A stretch of DNA of 6,701 bases from Candidatus Latescibacterota bacterium (GTDB lineage: Bacteria; JAAXHH01; JACQVL01): the NCBI GenBank assembly GCA_016209865.1, contig JACQVL010000142.1:1-6701 (forward strand), written 5' to 3'. Each line of letters starts with the position of its first letter. Positions within the stretch are counted from its first letter, which is position 1. The notes beneath the pieces are model-generated. The model worked only from the letters and a program-made list of their open reading frames with translations. It had not been told where the DNA came from and did no database searches. The position numbers and the translations under genes were made by a program. Shown piece by piece: positions 119-6,701 of the stretch.

Positions 119-2560
119 TCAAATGTTGAACAGATACTGAAATTTCGCCACGACCGCGGCCCCGGCTATCTTAAACGGGGTCTTCCCGCTTATCGGACTG
201 ACCCCCATCGCGCCATAATCATCGTCCGACACCTGGTTGTACGCGATATAGAACGAGTGGCCGACCTGCATCTGATAGGCGATCAGAAGGTTGCTGACCA
301 GCGCCGTCGTCGTCCCGGTCTGTCCGTTCTGGGCGGTCTTCTTGCTGTGGTTGAGTTGGACGAACGAGCTGATGTAGAATTCTGGGGTAAAGGAATAGTT
401 GAACCGGAGGCGATTGATGAGCGTCTGGTCCCGTTTGAATTGCGTGGCGGTCGTCCCGGTCGGGCTTGTCCGATCCAGATGATTGAACGTGGTATTCAGG
501 TTTAAGAGCAGCCGGGGGATGGGCTTCAGGACGATGTCCGTTCCAATGTTACGGATATCCCCATCGTAGAATTTCCCCTGGGAGTAATTGCCGCTGACGA
601 CCAGCGCTTTGCCGGGGTCAGTGTTCAACCCGCCGGAGAAGCGATCATACGTGTACTCGCCCTTCGGGAAATGGACACCGGCGATCTGGACCGGGTTGGG
701 ACCGGTGAGCGTATCGAAGTCGCGGGTCCAGCTTCCGAACACCGAGGCGCCGTTCTCTAACTGGAAAAACGGCCTTATGCTGACATCCCAGCTTTCCGGG
801 TTGTCGAAGAAATTGCCGTTCTGGTCATCGGTGTAGTTCACGCGGATCGAACTGTTCGTCTCCCGGATTCCGCTTTGACGAATCAGTTTCCGGATGGAAC
901 CGGTCCATGAGGCCTGACGGACGCCGCGCCGCTGGATGAACCCCATATCCGCGTAGAACCCCTCGCGGATGTCGGTGTAACTCGACGTGACATTAAAGTA
1001 CTGGTTCCGCCACCGGTGCGCGATGCTCCCGGCCCAGGTGTTTCCAGACTGAGGACTCTGCACGAGGGCGGCCATCCGGGGGTCGGTGTCCGACAGCCAG
1101 CTCCTGGCCGCCAACAGTTCCAGCCGGTGGTTGGTCTTGCCGAATCGGATCAGGTTATCAACCCCCAGGACCCGGTTGTACGATCGATCGGCGAACCCCA
1201 CGAACGACTCGCCGGGTTCTTTGAACAGTGCCATCACCCCGATGCTGCTCTCCCGGCCCAGGTTCTGGCGCACGCGCATCACCTGCCAGTTGGTCTTGCG
1301 GACGGGAGCGCCGACCGAGGGGGTGATACCGCCCGTTTGCGCGTTGAAGTACGCAAAGCTCGTCCGCTCCACTTTTCCCGTCAGCTTCGTGGCAAAGTCG
1401 ATGGGCGTCACCGACCCATCGAGGTTTTGGGTGCCGATCCGGCGACTGAAGAATAACGGGAGCGAGGAGGATGAGGAAAACCCGCTCATCCCTGTTCCAC
1501 CCCCTGAGGTGGACTGACCGAAGCTGAACAGGTCGACTCCCTCTAAGAAGAACGGGCGCTTCTCGTCAAAACGGAACTCAAACCGGCTCAAGTTCACGAC
1601 TTCCTGATCCGACTCGATGTTGGCGAAATCCGGGTTCACGGTCGCGTCGGCCGTGATGTTGGGCGTGACGCCCCACTTGAGGTCTCCGCCGATATCCCGT
1701 TTCGAGTCGAAATTCACGGACGTCTGGCTCGGCGTGAGGGCGGAACTGCGCTTCCCGATCGTGCCCAGGACCGAGTAGGGCAGGAGTTCCAACGCCCGTC
1801 CCGGTTGAACCTGTTCGAGTCCGACCAGCCGTCCGCTCCGCTCGAACCTGTACATCGCGTTGAACCCATCCGCCCGGTTCTTCGGCGGCCAGTGCGACTC
1901 TTCACGTTTCCGGCGGACCTGGCGACGGAAATTCACCCCCCACGTTTGCACCTCGCTGGGCGGGAACCGGAACGTCTTGAACGGGATCACCACCTCAACC
2001 GACCAGCCCTGAGGATTCCGCTTCGCTCGCACCCGCCAGATGCCGTCCCAGTCGTCGTTGAACGACTCGCCAAAATTCCCGACGAACGCATCCCGCTGCG
2101 CGCCCAGCGGGCTGGTGTTGAAGAAGTACGCATTGCTACGATCGGGGAATGGGCTGATGGCAAAGGCGAACGTGTCGTCCGTCGTGAAGATGTTCGCATC
2201 CCGCCGGGTCTCCCGTCCGACTACTTTGTCCGGTTCGCTGTCGTAGCACATCGCGCTGATGTACAGGTTCTCCTCGTCGTAGAGCGCCCGGACCTCGGTC
2301 CGTTCCGTGGATGGCGCCAGATAATCGGGATCCCATTGAATAAACCCGGTGGCGACCGGAGATCGTTGCCAGACCTCGTCGTCCAGCACTCCATCGAGGC
2401 GCGGGCCCTGTTCGACTTTGACCATCTGGATCGTGTACTGGTTGAAATCGACCTTGCTCAGGTCGATCCGCCGTGGTGTGGCCTCCTGCGCCCATCCGTT
2501 CATGTTGACAGCACCCATCAGGAACAGTCCGGTCAACGTGAGCACGTTCACGGTTGTCAT
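119..2560 (-). CDS. DUF5916-type outer-membrane beta-barrel protein with N-terminal CBM9-like domain
   Basis: An 813-aa protein predicted in the outer membrane. The chosen start is the ATG at 2558-2560: it gives a clean Sec signal peptide (MTTVNVLTLTGLFLMG..., likely cut after GWA at residue 24) and has a GAGAGGA-type ribosome site a few bases upstream. An in-frame ATG at 2632 adds 24 residues that run towards palindromic repeat DNA and spoil the signal, so it is rejected. Residues about 55-230 (LDGVLDDEVW at 55-64, then an alternating beta pattern rich in D, W and F) look like the CBM9/DOMON-like sugar-binding fold usual at the N-terminus of this family. From about 294 come the DUF5916 hallmarks: KWGVTPN (295-301), TVNPDFANIESD, and FDEKRPFFLEG from 331. 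A Gly/Ser-rich insert follows, then many amphipathic strands ending FQYLFNI, a plausible C-terminal beta-signal. The family's substrate is unknown; uptake or binding of a glycan or peptide is only a guess. The gene is divergent from the nxr operon and need not share its function. Confidence 0.88.
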   Translation of the reverse strand: MTTVNVLTLTGLFLMGAVNMNGWAQEATPRRIDLSKVDFNQYTIQMVKVEQGPRLDGVLDDEVWQRSPVATGFIQWDPDYLAPSTERTEVRALYDEENLYISAMCYDSEPDKVVGRETRRDANIFTTDDTFAFAISPFPDRSNAYFFNTSPLGAQRDAFVGNFGESFNDDWDGIWRVRAKRNPQGWSVEVVIPFKTFRFPPSEVQTWGVNFRRQVRRKREESHWPPKNRADGFNAMYRFERSGRLVGLEQVQPGRALELLPYSVLGTIGKRSSALTPSQTSVNFDSKRDIGGDLKWGVTPNITADATVNPDFANIESDQEVVNLSRFEFRFDEKRPFFLEGVDLFSFGQSTSGGGTGMSGFSSSSSLPLFFSRRIGTQNLDGSVTPIDFATKLTGKVERTSFAYFNAQTGGITPSVGAPVRKTNWQVMRVRQNLGRESSIGVMALFKEPGESFVGFADRSYNRVLGVDNLIRFGKTNHRLELLAARSWLSDTDPRMAALVQSPQSGNTWAGSIAHRWRNQYFNVTSSYTDIREGFYADMGFIQRRGVRQASWTGSIRKLIRQSGIRETNSSIRVNYTDDQNGNFFDNPESWDVSIRPFFQLENGASVFGSWTRDFDTLTGPNPVQIAGVHFPKGEYTYDRFSGGLNTDPGKALVVSGNYSQGKFYDGDIRNIGTDIVLKPIPRLLLNLNTTFNHLDRTSPTGTTATQFKRDQTLINRLRFNYSFTPEFYISSFVQLNHSKKTAQNGQTGTTTALVSNLLIAYQMQVGHSFYIAYNQVSDDDYGAMGVSPISGKTPFKIAGAAVVAKFQYLFNI

Positions 2561-2644
2561 AAGATTCCTCTCGCTTCGGGACGCTGTGAGATAGGTTGTG
2601 AATAGCAGCAGAACTCCTACGATTGACCTCACCCCTACCTCCAG

Positions 2645-2998: not shown

Positions 2999-3385
2999 AT
3001 GATGGCGATCGACTCTTCCATACTCTACTCCTTCTCCACCACCGGGCCGACGATCAACGTCCTGCACAGCTCGGACCGGATGCAGGTCATGGTGGTGTGC
3101 CTGGACGATGGCCAGGAGATCCCGCCGCACAACGGGCCGTGCGATGTCCTCCTGTACGTCCTCGCCGGCCGTGGCGTGCTGACGATCGGCGGGGAAGAAG
3201 TGATCGCCCAGACCGGGACGGCGCTGGTCGTCCCGTCGATGGTCGTCCGGGGCATCCGGAGTCGAGGACGGTTTGCGGTGTTGTGCGTGACGAACAACTG
3301 TGGGGTGTGTGCGCTGGACTTACAAGCAGTGACGAGTGAGACTGCAGTGGTCGGTGGTCAGTGGTCAGGGGTCGGTAAAAATTAA
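2999..3385 (+). CDS. Small cupin-fold protein with eroded metal site
   Basis: A 128-aa single-domain protein, first gene of the plus-strand operon. GGAGG at 2985-2989 lies 9 nt before the ATG at 2999; an adjacent ATG at 3002 is also possible. Residues about 25-95 read as a cupin beta-barrel: G38-QEIPP-H44 begins motif 1, followed by LLYVLAGRGVLTIGGEE, and G73-TALVV-P79 is motif 2. Of the four usual cupin metal ligands only H44 is kept. The second His is G46, the Glu position is V50 (with D49 next to it), and the motif-2 His is R84. It is therefore probably not a normal metal-dependent enzyme. A Cys group C96-x4-C101-x2-C104 follows and could bind metal or be redox-active. The last 19 or so residues (from AVTS) are encoded by a heptamer repeat array and look like an appended tail. 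The role beside nxrA is unknown; sensing or an accessory function is inference. Confidence 0.8.
   Translation: MMAIDSSILYSFSTTGPTINVLHSSDRMQVMVVCLDDGQEIPPHNGPCDVLLYVLAGRGVLTIGGEEVIAQTGTALVVPSMVVRGIRSRGRFAVLCVTNNCGVCALDLQAVTSETAVVGGQWSGVGKN
3329..3374 (+). repeat. Heptanucleotide tandem repeat array at the cupin 3' end
   Basis: Two related blocks of 7-nt units are visible. GTGACGA and GTGAGAC cover 3329-3342. After TGCA come GTGGTCG, GTGGTCA, GTGGTCA and GGGGTCG (3347-3374). The array lies inside the cupin reading frame and encodes its C-terminal tail. The motif GCAGTGACGAGTGA (3326-3339) recurs exactly at 4632-4645. Heptamer arrays of this kind recall the short tandemly repeated repetitive (STRR) sequences described in cyanobacteria. 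Confidence 0.75.
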
Positions 3386-3399
3386 CAGAAACAGGGATC

Positions 3400-4362
3400 A
3401 TGAAGATGGTCATTCATTATACTCCAGCATTAGTCGAAGGCGTGGTGCTCGAAGCCATCCGGCGTCAGGAGGCGATGGGGCACTCTGCGCTGTCCGCCGA
3501 GTACCACCGGCTCGTTGACCCGATCTATGAGCGGCCGGCCGTCGAGCGGGACGCCCTCTTCCACGCAGTCCATGTTCGACTGTTCGAGGGGTTGAAGTTC
3601 AGCGAGATCGTCTGGCAGGCGTTAGGCGAGTACCCCGACCTGACCGGGCGCGTCGAGGCCGTCGTCGTGACGACCGCGACCCGGCGGGACGAAGGGGCAG
3701 ACCTGAGCCGGGAGAGCCTGCACCCTTCCTCAGCCCCGACGATCGTGATCAAGGTCAGGCCGGAGCGGTTCTTCGACCCGTCCCGGTTCCGGCGATTCCT
3801 CCGGCATGAGTTGATGCACATCCAGGATATGCTCGACCCGGCGTTCGGGCTGACCCCGGAGAGCCGATTGCCGGACGGTTCGCCGACGGAGATCACGATG
3901 CTCAAAGACCGGTACCGGATGCTCTGGGACCTGAGCATCGACGCCCGGCTCGTTCGGATCGGCAAAGAGACCGTCTCAGGCCGTGACGAACGGTACGTGG
4001 AATTCAGGGTGCTCTACCGGAAACTCGACCCGACGCAGGTGGAGACGGTGTTCGCATGGTTGTGGCAGACTGACCGGCCGTCCCATGAAGAATTAGTGGG
4101 GATGGCGCGTGATGTGCGCACCCTGTTAGAACGGATCGGGTGTCCGGCCGAGGACCCGCGTTCCGGGCCGCGCACCCCGATGCCTGGCGCGTCGTGCCCG
4201 CTTTGCCGGTTTTCCACATTCGACTGGGCGGAGGATGTGGAGACGCTCCCCGAGGAGGCCCTGGACGCCATCCTGGCCGATTACCCGGAGTGGACGCCGG
4301 ACGAGGGCGCGTGCGAGCGGTGCATCGAAGCGTACCGGGCGAGGGTAGGACTGTGGCTATGA
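3400..4362 (+). CDS. Unrecognised HExxH metalloprotein with C-terminal CxxC/CxxC zinc-ribbon-like tail
   Basis: A 320-aa cytoplasmic protein (no signal peptide or membrane segment) that I cannot assign to a family. It starts 14 nt after the cupin stop. The ATG at 3406 is an alternative start, better spaced from the weak AGGG at 3393-3396. Residues 1-90 are mostly helical. Residues 120-146 carry a helix with H136-E-L-M-H140 followed by IQDMLD, the layout of a zincin active site. Possible third ligands lie downstream, for example D146 or acidic residues in WDLSIDARL. The C-terminus has C248, then C266-x2-C269 and C305-x2-C308, the last two pairs forming a likely zinc ribbon or similar metal site. 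HExxH followed by a C-terminal four-Cys ribbon recalls SprT-like proteins, but the rest shows no clear resemblance. The ferredoxin gene overlaps its stop by 4 bp, so the two are probably translationally coupled. It could be a processing or maturation factor for the NxrA metalloenzyme (inference). Confidence 0.85.
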   Translation: MKMVIHYTPALVEGVVLEAIRRQEAMGHSALSAEYHRLVDPIYERPAVERDALFHAVHVRLFEGLKFSEIVWQALGEYPDLTGRVEAVVVTTATRRDEGADLSRESLHPSSAPTIVIKVRPERFFDPSRFRRFLRHELMHIQDMLDPAFGLTPESRLPDGSPTEITMLKDRYRMLWDLSIDARLVRIGKETVSGRDERYVEFRVLYRKLDPTQVETVFAWLWQTDRPSHEELVGMARDVRTLLERIGCPAEDPRSGPRTPMPGASCPLCRFSTFDWAEDVETLPEEALDAILADYPEWTPDEGACERCIEAYRARVGLWL

Positions 4363-4652
4363 ACCGGCGCGCGTTCTTCAGTACGATCGTGGGGAAGGGT
4401 GGGAGAGGGGCCGGGGGTGAGGGGCAGGTTGCCGTCATCGACCACCGCCTCTGCCTCGCCTGGGACGGCGGGGATTGTCAGCTTTGTTTCATTCAGTGCC
4501 CGTTGCAAGAGACGGCCATCCAGTTGGAGGATTTCAAACCGGTGATCAACGCGATCGCCTGTGACGGGTGCGGACTCTGCCGCCTCGCCTGCGCGACGGT
4601 CAACGATCCGGGAGCGATCCGGATGACAACTGCAGTGACGAGTGACCAGTGA
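4359..4652 (+). CDS. NapF-like ferredoxin with two [4Fe-4S] motifs
   Basis: A 97-aa protein whose ATG overlaps the previous stop codon (ATGA, 4359-4362). An upstream in-frame start at 4140 would lie deep inside the preceding gene and is rejected. The first cluster motif is C32-x7-C40-x2-C43-x3-C47-P, beginning CLAW. The second is C68-x2-C71-x2-C74-x3-C78 in CDGCGLCRLAC. The C-x7-C spacing and CLAW start match the C-terminal half of NapF, and the N-terminal NRRAFF recalls the SRRG start of NapF. The first cluster domain of NapF is absent. There is no hydrophobic stretch after the twin Arg, so it is probably cytoplasmic. NapF is known to interact with NapA and help its maturation before Tat export; a similar job for NxrA is inferred. 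A direct electron-transfer role is the alternative. Residues 12-22 (GKGGRGAGGEG) and the final AVTSDQ are encoded by repeat DNA. Confidence 0.87.
   Translation: MNRRAFFSTIVGKGGRGAGGEGQVAVIDHRLCLAWDGGDCQLCFIQCPLQETAIQLEDFKPVINAIACDGCGLCRLACATVNDPGAIRMTTAVTSDQ
4391..4426 (+). repeat. G-rich repeat arm inside the ferredoxin gene
   Basis: An almost pure purine, G-rich stretch containing GGGAGAGGGG (4401-4410) and GGGGGTGAGGGG (4413-4424). It resembles the right arm of the palindromic repeat at 2645-2699, which also has GGAGAGGGG followed by GGGG and GTGAGG. It stays in frame and encodes the Gly-rich segment of the ferredoxin. The matching left arm is not seen here, so it may be a half-copy or simply a low-complexity linker. 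Confidence 0.5.
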
Positions 4653-4750
4653 CGAGTGACGAGGAAAAGCAAGGACTTATCTCAGGCAGACCAGACTATC
4701 CACACTCATCGTTTGTTTCTTTAACTTGTCACTCGTCACTCGTCACTGCT
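4632..4750. repeat. Heptamer repeats forming a 17-bp inverted repeat before nxrA
   Basis: The left arm has four heptamers, GTGACGA, GTGACCA, GTGACGA and GTGACGA (4635-4662). It covers the ferredoxin stop codon (4650-4652). The right arm (4728-4748) carries GTCACTC, GTCACTC and GTCACTG. Positions 4647-4663 and 4732-4748 are perfectly complementary (17 bp, 68-nt loop). An alternative 15-bp pairing joins 4632-4646 with 4735-4749. The right arm ends 6 nt before the AAGGAG of nxrA, so folding could affect its translation or stabilise the mRNA. There is no U-tract. The loop shows no gene or clear promoter. Confidence 0.8.
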
Positions 4751-4767
4751 CTTCAAGGAGACTCTCA

Positions 4768-6701
4768 ATGGACCTCACTCGAAGGGCGTTCCTGAAAGCG
4801 GCCGGGGCAGCAGGAACTGCCGTCATGTTCTCCGAGCACGCATTCGCCCTGAAGACCCTCCAGCCGGTAGTGGACGTGGCCAACCCGCTGGACGCGTATC
4901 CCGACCGTGACTGGGAAGCGATCTACCGGGATCAGTACCGGTATGACAAGAGTTTCACCTGGGTCTGCTCCCCCAACTGCACGCACGCCTGCCGGCTGCG
5001 CGCGTTCATGCGCAACGGCGTGGTCATCCGGAGCGAGCAGAACTACGACGGGAGCCGGATCGCGGACCTGTACGGCAACACGTCGACCGCCCACTGGAAC
5101 CCGCGCGGTTGTTCCAACGGGTTCACGTTCCAGCGCCGGCTCTACGGCCCGTACCGCCTGCGGTATCCGATGATCCGCAAGGGCTGGAAACAATGGGCGG
5201 ACGACGGGTTCCCGGAACTGACGCCTGAGAACAAGACGAAGTATCTATTCGACGCCCGCGGTCAGGACGAATTGCTCCGGACGACCTGGGAGGAGGCGTT
5301 TACGTACGTCTCCAAAGGTATGATCCACATCGCCACGACGTACAGCGGAGAGGAAGGCAAGCAACGACTCCTGGCGCAAGGCTACCCGCCGGAGATGCTC
5401 GAACACTGGGAAGGGTCGGGGGTGCGCACGTTCAAACTGCGTGGCGGGATGGGCCTCTTGGGCGTCATCGGCAAGTATGGACTGTACCGGTTCGCCAACA
5501 TGCTCGCCCTCCTCGACGTCCACGTCCGCGGGGTCAAGCCGGACGAGGCGCAAGGCGGACGGCTCTGGTCGAACTACACCTGGCACGGCGACCAGGCGCC
5601 CGGCCATCCGTTCGTCCACGGCCTGCAGGCGTCAGATACCGATCTCAACGAAATGCGGTTCACGAAACTCCACATCCAGATGGGGAAGAACCTCGTCGAG
5701 AATAAACGAGCGGACAACCATTTCTTCATCGAGACGATGGAGCGCGGGGCGAAGATCGTCGTCATCACCCCGGAGTACAGCCCGCCCGCCACGAAGGCGG
5801 ACTACTGGATTCCGGTCCGGCCGCAGAGCGACGCCGCCCTGCTGTTAGGCATCACGAAGATCCTGATGGATGAGAAACTCTACGACGCGGCGTTCGTCAA
5901 ACAATACACCGATTTCCCGTTCCTCGTCCGCACTGACACCCTGAAGCGACTGCGGGCCGCCGACGTGTTCCCCGGCTACAAGGGCGGGCTGGCGAAGGAC
6001 GGGGCGAGCTTCAAGGAGCAGGGGCTGACCGACGAGCAGTACGCGAAGGTCGGGGATTTCGTCGTCTGGGACGCGAAGACGAATAGTCCGAAGGCGATCA
6101 CCCGTGACGACGTCGGGGAGAAACTCACCGCGAAGGGCCTCGACCCGGCGCTCGAAGGCCGGTACCGGGTGAAGACGACGGACGGAAAGACGGTCGAGGT
6201 CATGCCCCTGTTCGAGATGTACAAGCTGCATCTGAAGGATTACGACCTCGACGCGGTGCACGAGATGACGCAAGCGCCGAAAGACCTGATCGTCCGGCTC
6301 GCCCACGACATCGCCTCCATCAAGCCGTGCGCCATCCATATCGGGGAAGGGATCAACCACTGGTTCCACGCGACGGAGATCAACCGGGCGACCTACCTCC
6401 CGCTGATACTGACGGGCAACATCGGCAAGCCGGGGGCCGGGTCGCACACGTGGGCGGGGAACTACAAAGCGGCGCTGTTCCAGGGTTCGTCCTGGTCGGG
6501 CCCCGGCTTCAAGGGCTGGATCGGCGAAGACCCGTTCCATCCGAACCTCGACCCGAACGCGGACGGGAAGGATATCCACGCGCACAGCTACACCTACGAC
6601 GAAGAGCCGGGCTACTGGAATTACGGAGAAAAACCCCTGATCGTCAACACCCCGAAGTACGGCCGGAAAGTGTTCACCGGCAAGACGCACCTCCCCTCGC
6701 C
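4768..6701 (+). CDS. nxrA: Nitrite oxidoreductase / nitrate reductase alpha subunit, periplasmic type (partial, 3' end beyond window)
   Basis: The first 644 codons of a type II DMSO-reductase-family catalytic subunit; the full protein in this clade is about 1,100-1,200 aa. It oxidises nitrite to nitrate (or the reverse) at Mo-bis-MGD and passes electrons through [4Fe-4S] clusters to a beta subunit, expected just downstream. AAGGAG at 4755-4760 sits 7 nt before the ATG. A Tat leader (LTRRAFLKAAG, likely cut after AFA at 25-27) indicates periplasmic export. The proximal Fe-S motif is C67-x3-C71-x3-C75-x39-C115; the first ligand is Cys where E. coli NarG has His. NYTWHGDQAPG holds D275, the expected Asp ligand of Mo (equivalent to NarG D222). 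MGKN (305-308), YWIPVRPQSDAA (346-357) and GKPGAG (553-558) are cofactor-binding segments. DYPDRDWE/YRDQYRYD-like text (44-60) and RKGWKQWADDGFPELTPENK are typical of Nitrospira and anammox NxrA. The call cannot separate an oxidase from a reductase working in reverse. No frameshift is seen. Confidence 0.9.
   Translation, partial: MDLTRRAFLKAAGAAGTAVMFSEHAFALKTLQPVVDVANPLDAYPDRDWEAIYRDQYRYDKSFTWVCSPNCTHACRLRAFMRNGVVIRSEQNYDGSRIADLYGNTSTAHWNPRGCSNGFTFQRRLYGPYRLRYPMIRKGWKQWADDGFPELTPENKTKYLFDARGQDELLRTTWEEAFTYVSKGMIHIATTYSGEEGKQRLLAQGYPPEMLEHWEGSGVRTFKLRGGMGLLGVIGKYGLYRFANMLALLDVHVRGVKPDEAQGGRLWSNYTWHGDQAPGHPFVHGLQASDTDLNEMRFTKLHIQMGKNLVENKRADNHFFIETMERGAKIVVITPEYSPPATKADYWIPVRPQSDAALLLGITKILMDEKLYDAAFVKQYTDFPFLVRTDTLKRLRAADVFPGYKGGLAKDGASFKEQGLTDEQYAKVGDFVVWDAKTNSPKAITRDDVGEKLTAKGLDPALEGRYRVKTTDGKTVEVMPLFEMYKLHLKDYDLDAVHEMTQAPKDLIVRLAHDIASIKPCAIHIGEGINHWFHATEINRATYLPLILTGNIGKPGAGSHTWAGNYKAALFQGSSWSGPGFKGWIGEDPFHPNLDPNADGKDIHAHSYTYDEEPGYWNYGEKPLIVNTPKYGRKVFTGKTHLPS

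Follow-up and report, generated by a model that had tools for sequence, protein, structure and literature searches.

We describe a protein family, here called HEX, that recurs in the same genomic context across many phyla, far beyond chance, and that is a genuine, unnamed family tied to the periplasmic nitrite oxidoreductase (NXR). Its starting point is a 6,701-nt stretch of DNA from a Candidatus Latescibacterota bacterium (JACQVL010000142.1; hereafter the window), which makes up the whole of contig C91 in a genome of 3.75 Mb and 83% completeness and stops inside nxrA. Upstream of nxrA and on the same strand lie genes for a cupin, for HEX, a protein with an HExxH motif and a C-terminal four-cysteine (Cys4) region, and for a small ferredoxin (FD), with 14 nt between cupin and HEX, a 4-nt ATGA overlap of HEX and FD and 115 nt between FD and nxrA, so that the layout and spacing given in the initial annotation, made from the sequence alone, match the open reading frame positions exactly. 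We infer with fair confidence that HEX and FD work in the cytoplasm and are dedicated to the biogenesis of periplasmic NXR, where they would act alongside the TorD-type chaperone of the same operon.

HEX had no match in Pfam or NCBIfam, Pfam was also empty for 53 family members, and PDB sequence searches with HEX and with its profile returned nothing significant. A scan of 84,980 species genomes yielded 244 relatives, the best 80 of which were retained as named loci. These best 80 come mostly from Nitrospira, including Ca. N. defluvii and N. moscoviensis, the other hosts being Methylomirabilota, an Acidobacteria metagenome-assembled genome (MAG), Tectomicrobia, Poribacteria and a RIFCSP Nitrospinae MAG. 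Within 6 kb of HEX and on the same strand, torD, nxrA or nxrB was found in 75 of the 80 named loci, the contig stopping 579-936 bp downstream of HEX in the remaining five, and the order HEX-FD-torD is present in 69. The phylum of G020, whose gene content suggests that it is Nitrospinota, has HEX in 51 of 77 genomes, and wherever the contig there runs on for more than about 430 bp past HEX, nxrA, nxrB or torD follows. Far from lying mostly away from molybdoenzyme genes, the outcome that the initial annotation had named as contrary to its proposal, all HEX genes with at least about 1 kb of downstream contig are located within nxr/torD clusters. Two main orders were seen in whole-genome neighbourhoods, HEX-(FD)-nxrA-X-nxrB-torD-nxrC and nxrC-nxrA-X-nxrB-torD-HEX-(FD), X being the gene of a small protein, with a third, nxrC-HEX-nxrA, in family f32; HEX stands about 1.4 kb beyond torD in G189 and G453, the Nitrospina-like G105 has the order HEX-nxrB-torD, and in Nitrospira HEX-FD-torD forms a unit apart from nxrAB.

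The association extends to the presence of the enzyme itself. NxrA matches in a sample of 384 genomes fell into two groups, 22 genomes having matches at 56-100% identity (true NxrA) and 12 only at 40-48% (NxrA-like). Scored by co-occurrence and gene order, as had been suggested at the outset, HEX was seen only with true NxrA and, where the contig was long enough, in nxr/torD clusters: it was found in 18 of the 384 genomes, all 18 among the 22 with true NxrA, and was absent from all 12 NxrA-like-only genomes and from all 350 with neither. Fisher tests of this association gave 2e-27 for the whole sample and 3e-6 when restricted to genomes with NxrA or NxrA-like proteins, values that are descriptive, as the genomes are non-independent and the searches start from a loose first look. 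Of the four true-NxrA genomes in which HEX was not found, two (G208 and G148) have the cluster on cut contigs. Neither HEX nor NxrA was found in 15 phylum relatives of the window genome, which is consistent with the joint acquisition of HEX and nxrA by that genome. As an anammox check, NxrA genomes were searched for hydrazine-synthase domains; two matched, neither clearly anammox. A class search around one of these matches (two genomes) gave no HEX; searching the phylum of the second match did not answer the anammox question but turned up a short, Cys4-less HEX, and no anammox genome was identifiable in the samples searched.

Judged from its sequence, the window nxrA encodes a periplasmic NXR. 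Its product begins with a twin-arginine translocation (Tat) signal (MDLTRRAFLKAAG start), and residues 1-644 align end to end with Kuenenia NXR-A of known structure (PDB 7b04; 1042 bits), as expected for the Tat-exported periplasmic enzyme initially proposed; nxrB and nxrC are present in the same genome. The FS0 Fe-S motif of the window NxrA (about 4966-4992) reads CSPNCTHAC, a Cys replacing the Asp of Kuenenia and of most other NxrA compared (CSPNDTHAC); this Cys is common to the window NxrA and G241 (L117). Because the window contig ends within nxrA, torD was invisible to the initial annotation, which had seen no TorD/NarJ-type chaperone gene there. When the genome was searched with the C-terminal portion of NxrA from a relative, contig C287 (4,815 bp) was recovered, which carries nxrB, nxrC and torD, all three of the downstream genes sought. 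The idea of HEX and FD as a replacement for TorD was dropped, torD being present on C287 and adjoining HEX in most relatives. The nxrA pieces on C91 and C287 do not overlap, with about 270 codons missing between them, and the two contigs have a 118-nt repeat in common (92% identity by direct comparison). The full operon order is most likely cupin-HEX-FD-nxrA-X-nxrB-torD-nxrC, the contigs being joined on gene order and not on the assembly.

The AlphaFold2 model of HEX, built with 53 sequences, had a predicted local distance difference test (pLDDT) score of 86.6. It opens with helices at the N-terminus, followed by strands, the helix that bears HExxH, a second, long helix and finally the C-terminal Cys4 region. 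The top VIA-align matches of the model were mostly HExxH metalloenzymes, namely M1 aminopeptidases, YbeY, a DNA-protein crosslink (DPC) repair protease and selecase, with Z of 4.0-4.9, and Foldseek found no significant match for the full model or for the Cys4 part alone. The model is compatible with a zincin-like domain, of probable zincin-like fold, followed by a four-cysteine domain. When modelled alone (pLDDT 78.9), the Cys4 part showed a weak likeness, with Z 2.8 over 53 residues, to a ZAD domain. By hydropathy, HEX has neither a signal peptide nor a transmembrane segment.

The window FD contains two 4Fe-4S motifs with eight Cys; among NCBIfam families it is closest to NapG, matching the C-terminal part of that protein (1.8e-9), with NapF at 0.0025. 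It scores below the curated cut-off (37 bits for NapG against 269) and has only two of the four 4Fe-4S motifs. This protein, initially described as a half-NapF, is a shortened NapG/NapF-like ferredoxin. In Nitrospira and G277 the FD homologues contain four 4Fe-4S motifs, with matches to NapG (1.9e-30 and 4.1e-35) and to NapF and with scores of 106-121 bits that are likewise under the family cut-off. The window FD and those of L039 and G445 keep only the second cluster pair behind the same RR-F N-terminus, the first cluster of the shortened FD having the unusual spacing C-x7-C-x2-C-x3-C. No export signal with a hydrophobic core was found in FD.

The cupin, initially counted as a member of the cassette, is not conserved, its profile having no match outside the window in the loci tested. 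Elsewhere the genes upstream of HEX include those of Rrf2 regulators, TPR proteins and radical-SAM proteins. Rrf2-type regulators, which often sense Fe-S clusters, are encoded directly upstream of HEX in nxr clusters of Methylomirabilota and Acidobacteria (L034:9222-9668, L047:3499-3939 and L049:5318-5746), with their identity Pfam-confirmed in L034 and assigned by resemblance in L047 and L049. B12-binding radical SAM proteins near HEX in Nitrospinota-like and Nitrospira clusters (L193:1429-3261 and L044:14133-15911) are only 25% identical to each other. The cupin is a neighbour in the window genome and is best left out of the module.

The resemblance of the model to HExxH metalloenzymes invites the explanation that HEX is an active zinc metallopeptidase, which would trim or degrade misfolded or cofactor-free NxrA before export. 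The HExxH motif is indeed invariant across the 53 aligned homologues, and H136, E137, H140 and D181 are kept in most members of a larger set of 118. In that set, however, H136 is found in 104, E137 in 117 and H140 in 114 homologues, so that the metal-binding histidines, absent in 14 and 4 of the 118, respectively, are not kept family-wide; four homologues have lost both and a further ten only H136, seven homologues reading QExxH, with the gene still in the nxr operon. Y43, R50, D143, F149, W176 and R183 are invariant in the 118, and all four Cys are kept in 117. Five HEX genes of another phylum (L183 and L211-L214), located directly after torD, keep HExxH and lack the Cys4 part, and HEX of f32 and G240 show the reverse loss, with HExxH gone and Cys4 kept, the losses of the two metal sites being complementary. 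Since either metal site can be lost while the gene stays in the operon, an obligatory protease is disfavoured, and there was no significant peptidase match in Foldseek and none in Pfam. We thus regard the peptidase explanation as unlikely, and the metalloprotease version of the quality control envisaged in the initial annotation is weakened by the loss of the HExxH histidines in several lineages. The conservation pattern points to a scaffold or adaptor role common to the whole HEX family, with peptidase activity optional at most. A third metal ligand was also considered: D181 was suggested by its joint loss with both His in L003, but HExxH-intact L154 and L157 also lack it, and the candidate was rejected.

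FD, and perhaps HEX, could instead serve electron transfer or regulation in nitrite oxidation and not assembly, for instance with FD as a soluble carrier from or to NXR. The 4Fe-4S motifs of FD are intact, FD is as related to NapG as to NapF, and many electron carriers are encoded in nxr clusters (PMC3578206); yet FD and HEX carry no export signal with a hydrophobic core, whereas the Tat signal places NxrA in the periplasm, and the HEX-FD-torD unit of Nitrospira is separate from nxrAB, and we consider such a role distinctly improbable. Improbable to a still greater degree is that HEX is a hitch-hiker on horizontally transferred nxr operons with no role in NXR. These operons seem horizontally mobile, nxrA and HEX both being absent from the 15 phylum relatives, and hitch-hiking does hold for the cupin. 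For HEX it is contradicted by the co-occurrence with true NxrA and by locus linkage, and the gene, whose sequence is under strong constraint, keeps its position in many phyla, whichever of several orders the operon has, and also where the Nitrospira arrangement is split.

In the biogenesis role that we favour, TorD would hold apo-NxrA, guard its Tat signal and assist Mo cofactor insertion, and the NapF/NapG-like FD would deliver or protect the Fe-S clusters of NxrA and NxrB before export. HEX would be a metal-stabilised adaptor, with a zincin-like scaffold and a Cys4 domain, that binds the TorD-NxrA intermediate and helps decide the release of NxrA to the Tat translocon; in some lineages it may also have peptidase activity. 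What is directly supported is that the HEX family is conserved, is linked to nxr and co-occurs with true NxrA, and that HEX has metal-site motifs but no export signal or transmembrane helix; we infer its binding partners, its metal content and the order of events. The Rrf2 regulator genes upstream of HEX in several operons also speak for this role. In the 15 operons where all five genes were present, the distances of HEX correlated best with those of TorD (r 0.86), followed by NxrB (0.79), NxrC (0.66) and NxrA (0.53), and after accounting for TorD no positive HEX-NxrA correlation remained, which hints at TorD as the partner of HEX.

Several points weigh against this likely biogenesis role. Operon linkage alone is also compatible with an electron-transfer or regulatory role, and many nxr clusters are without FD. 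G241 and G139 have an intact nxr-torD cluster without HEX, and HEX is therefore not indispensable. The TorD-NxrB correlation is higher (0.90) than that of HEX and TorD, whose covariation may just reflect a common operon history. What stands of the undescribed NXR maturation module initially proposed is HEX and FD, both well supported; the substitution of TorD and the cupin do not. A broader proposition, to which we give an even chance, is that HEX founds a new class of biogenesis factors for molybdoenzymes, with a zincin-derived scaffold, catalytically dead in some lineages, and a zinc finger, acting with TorD and a NapF-like ferredoxin and specific to periplasmic NXR across nitrite-oxidizing phyla.

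The TorD/NarJ/DmsD chaperones (PF02613; TIGR03482 for the type II dimethyl sulfoxide reductase chaperone) resemble the HEX module in being cytoplasmic, system-specific and encoded in molybdoenzyme operons, and a true TorD is present in HEX operons; unlike them, HEX and 52 relatives have no PF02613 match, and HEX, which accompanies TorD, has metal-site motifs and a different predicted fold. FdhE, an accessory protein of periplasmic formate dehydrogenase, also has about 300 aa and CxxC metal motifs and is linked to its enzyme solely where that is exported (PMC10609526), but it has four iron-binding CxxC motifs where HEX has two CxxC and HExxH. No FdhE family match was found in 53 HEX members (Pfam, E up to 1), and FdhE was not among the structural matches listed for the HEX model, an absence that excludes nothing. 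With zincin metallopeptidases (M1, YbeY, minigluzincins) the model has in common an HExxH on a helix following a small sheet, but HEX has no sequence match to them, structural Z is weak (<5) and the His are lost in some lineages. The FD family is like the NapF/NapG ferredoxins in the four 4Fe-4S motifs of the Nitrospira and G277 homologues and in the RR-F N-terminus, but the window FD has the C-terminal cluster pair only, accompanies NxrA, not NapA, and scores under the family cut-offs. NapF binds NapA in E. coli, and the R. sphaeroides NapA Fe-S cluster needs NapF (reviewed in PMC10609526); the NapF-NapA pair would be the closest functional analogy for FD.

Lucker et al. 2013 (PMC3578206) list one putative zinc finger protein next to a TorD-like chaperone in the nxr gene set common to Nitrospina, Nitrospira and Kuenenia. 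This zinc finger protein, for which that text gives no HExxH site or function, probably belongs to the HEX family. The Kuenenia cluster table (kustd1699-1713) has hypothetical or unknown proteins around nxrAB (PMC6423088). Our literature search found no paper discussing the function of the HEX family and none on the pre-export assembly of NXR as a Mo/Fe-S enzyme.

Table 1 Features of the window (contig C91) and of contig C287 from the same genome.
Feature	Position	Strand	Remarks
Cupin	2999..3385	+	128 aa; Pfam Cupin_2 2.4e-10, 40 bits against cut-off 27
HEX, 320-aa zincin-like/Cys4 protein, proposed NXR biogenesis factor	3400..4362	+
HExxH motif codons	3805..3819	+	HEX residues 136-140
Cys4 region of HEX	4195..4323	+	C266, C269, C305, C308
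FD, 97-aa NapG/NapF-like ferredoxin	4359..4652	+	Shortened form, two 4Fe-4S motifs
4Fe-4S cysteine motifs of FD	4452..4592	+	C32, C40, C43, C47; C68, C71, C74, C78; direct reading and alignment with four-cluster homologues
Long inverted repeat between FD and nxrA	4632..4749	+	Arms 26 nt, 92% complementary; RNA fold z -4.95
nxrA, first 644 codons	4768..6701	+	ATG at 4768; Tat signal; continues on C287
nxrA 3' end	C287 2-709
Protein X	C287 804-1127 (= L205:804-1127)		107 aa, conserved
nxrB	C287 1281-2561
TorD-type chaperone gene	C287 2646-3416		PF02613 1.1e-24; TIGR03482 4.2e-32
nxrC	C287 3401 to contig end		Cytochrome-c/EB_dh

The inverted repeat between FD and nxrA is composed of GTGACGAGTGAC-type repeats, with further copies at 3326-3339 and upstream of nxrB on C287, and the C-termini of the cupin and of FD extend into repeats of this type. 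It is possibly an attenuator or a mobile repeat, and co-transcription into nxrA is uncertain because the FD-nxrA gap contains it. The 118-nt repeat, a dispersed element with a perfect 18-bp palindromic arm pair, lies at 2614-2731 of the window, its copy on C287 being found after nxrA in inverted orientation (L205:680-797). Homologues of protein X (about 82-124 aa), with no match in Pfam or NCBIfam, are encoded between nxrA and nxrB in most non-Nitrospira clusters. An 837-aa DUF5916/CBM9-like protein is encoded on the minus strand of the window (119-2632), divergent from the cassette, with no nxr link as far as seen.

Nearly all nitrate in nature is produced by NXR (PMC8387239). HEX is a solid accessory family of its periplasmic form, with a likely role in biogenesis. 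Together with the ferredoxin and TorD, HEX offers concrete targets for studying NXR assembly, and co-expressing the three might aid the production of active NXR in other hosts. As a marker that accompanies NxrA of at least 56% identity and was not found with the 40-48% look-alikes, HEX could help annotate nitrite oxidizers in metagenomes; if it does represent a new class of biogenesis factor, its presence would help tell true NXR from look-alike enzymes in such data.

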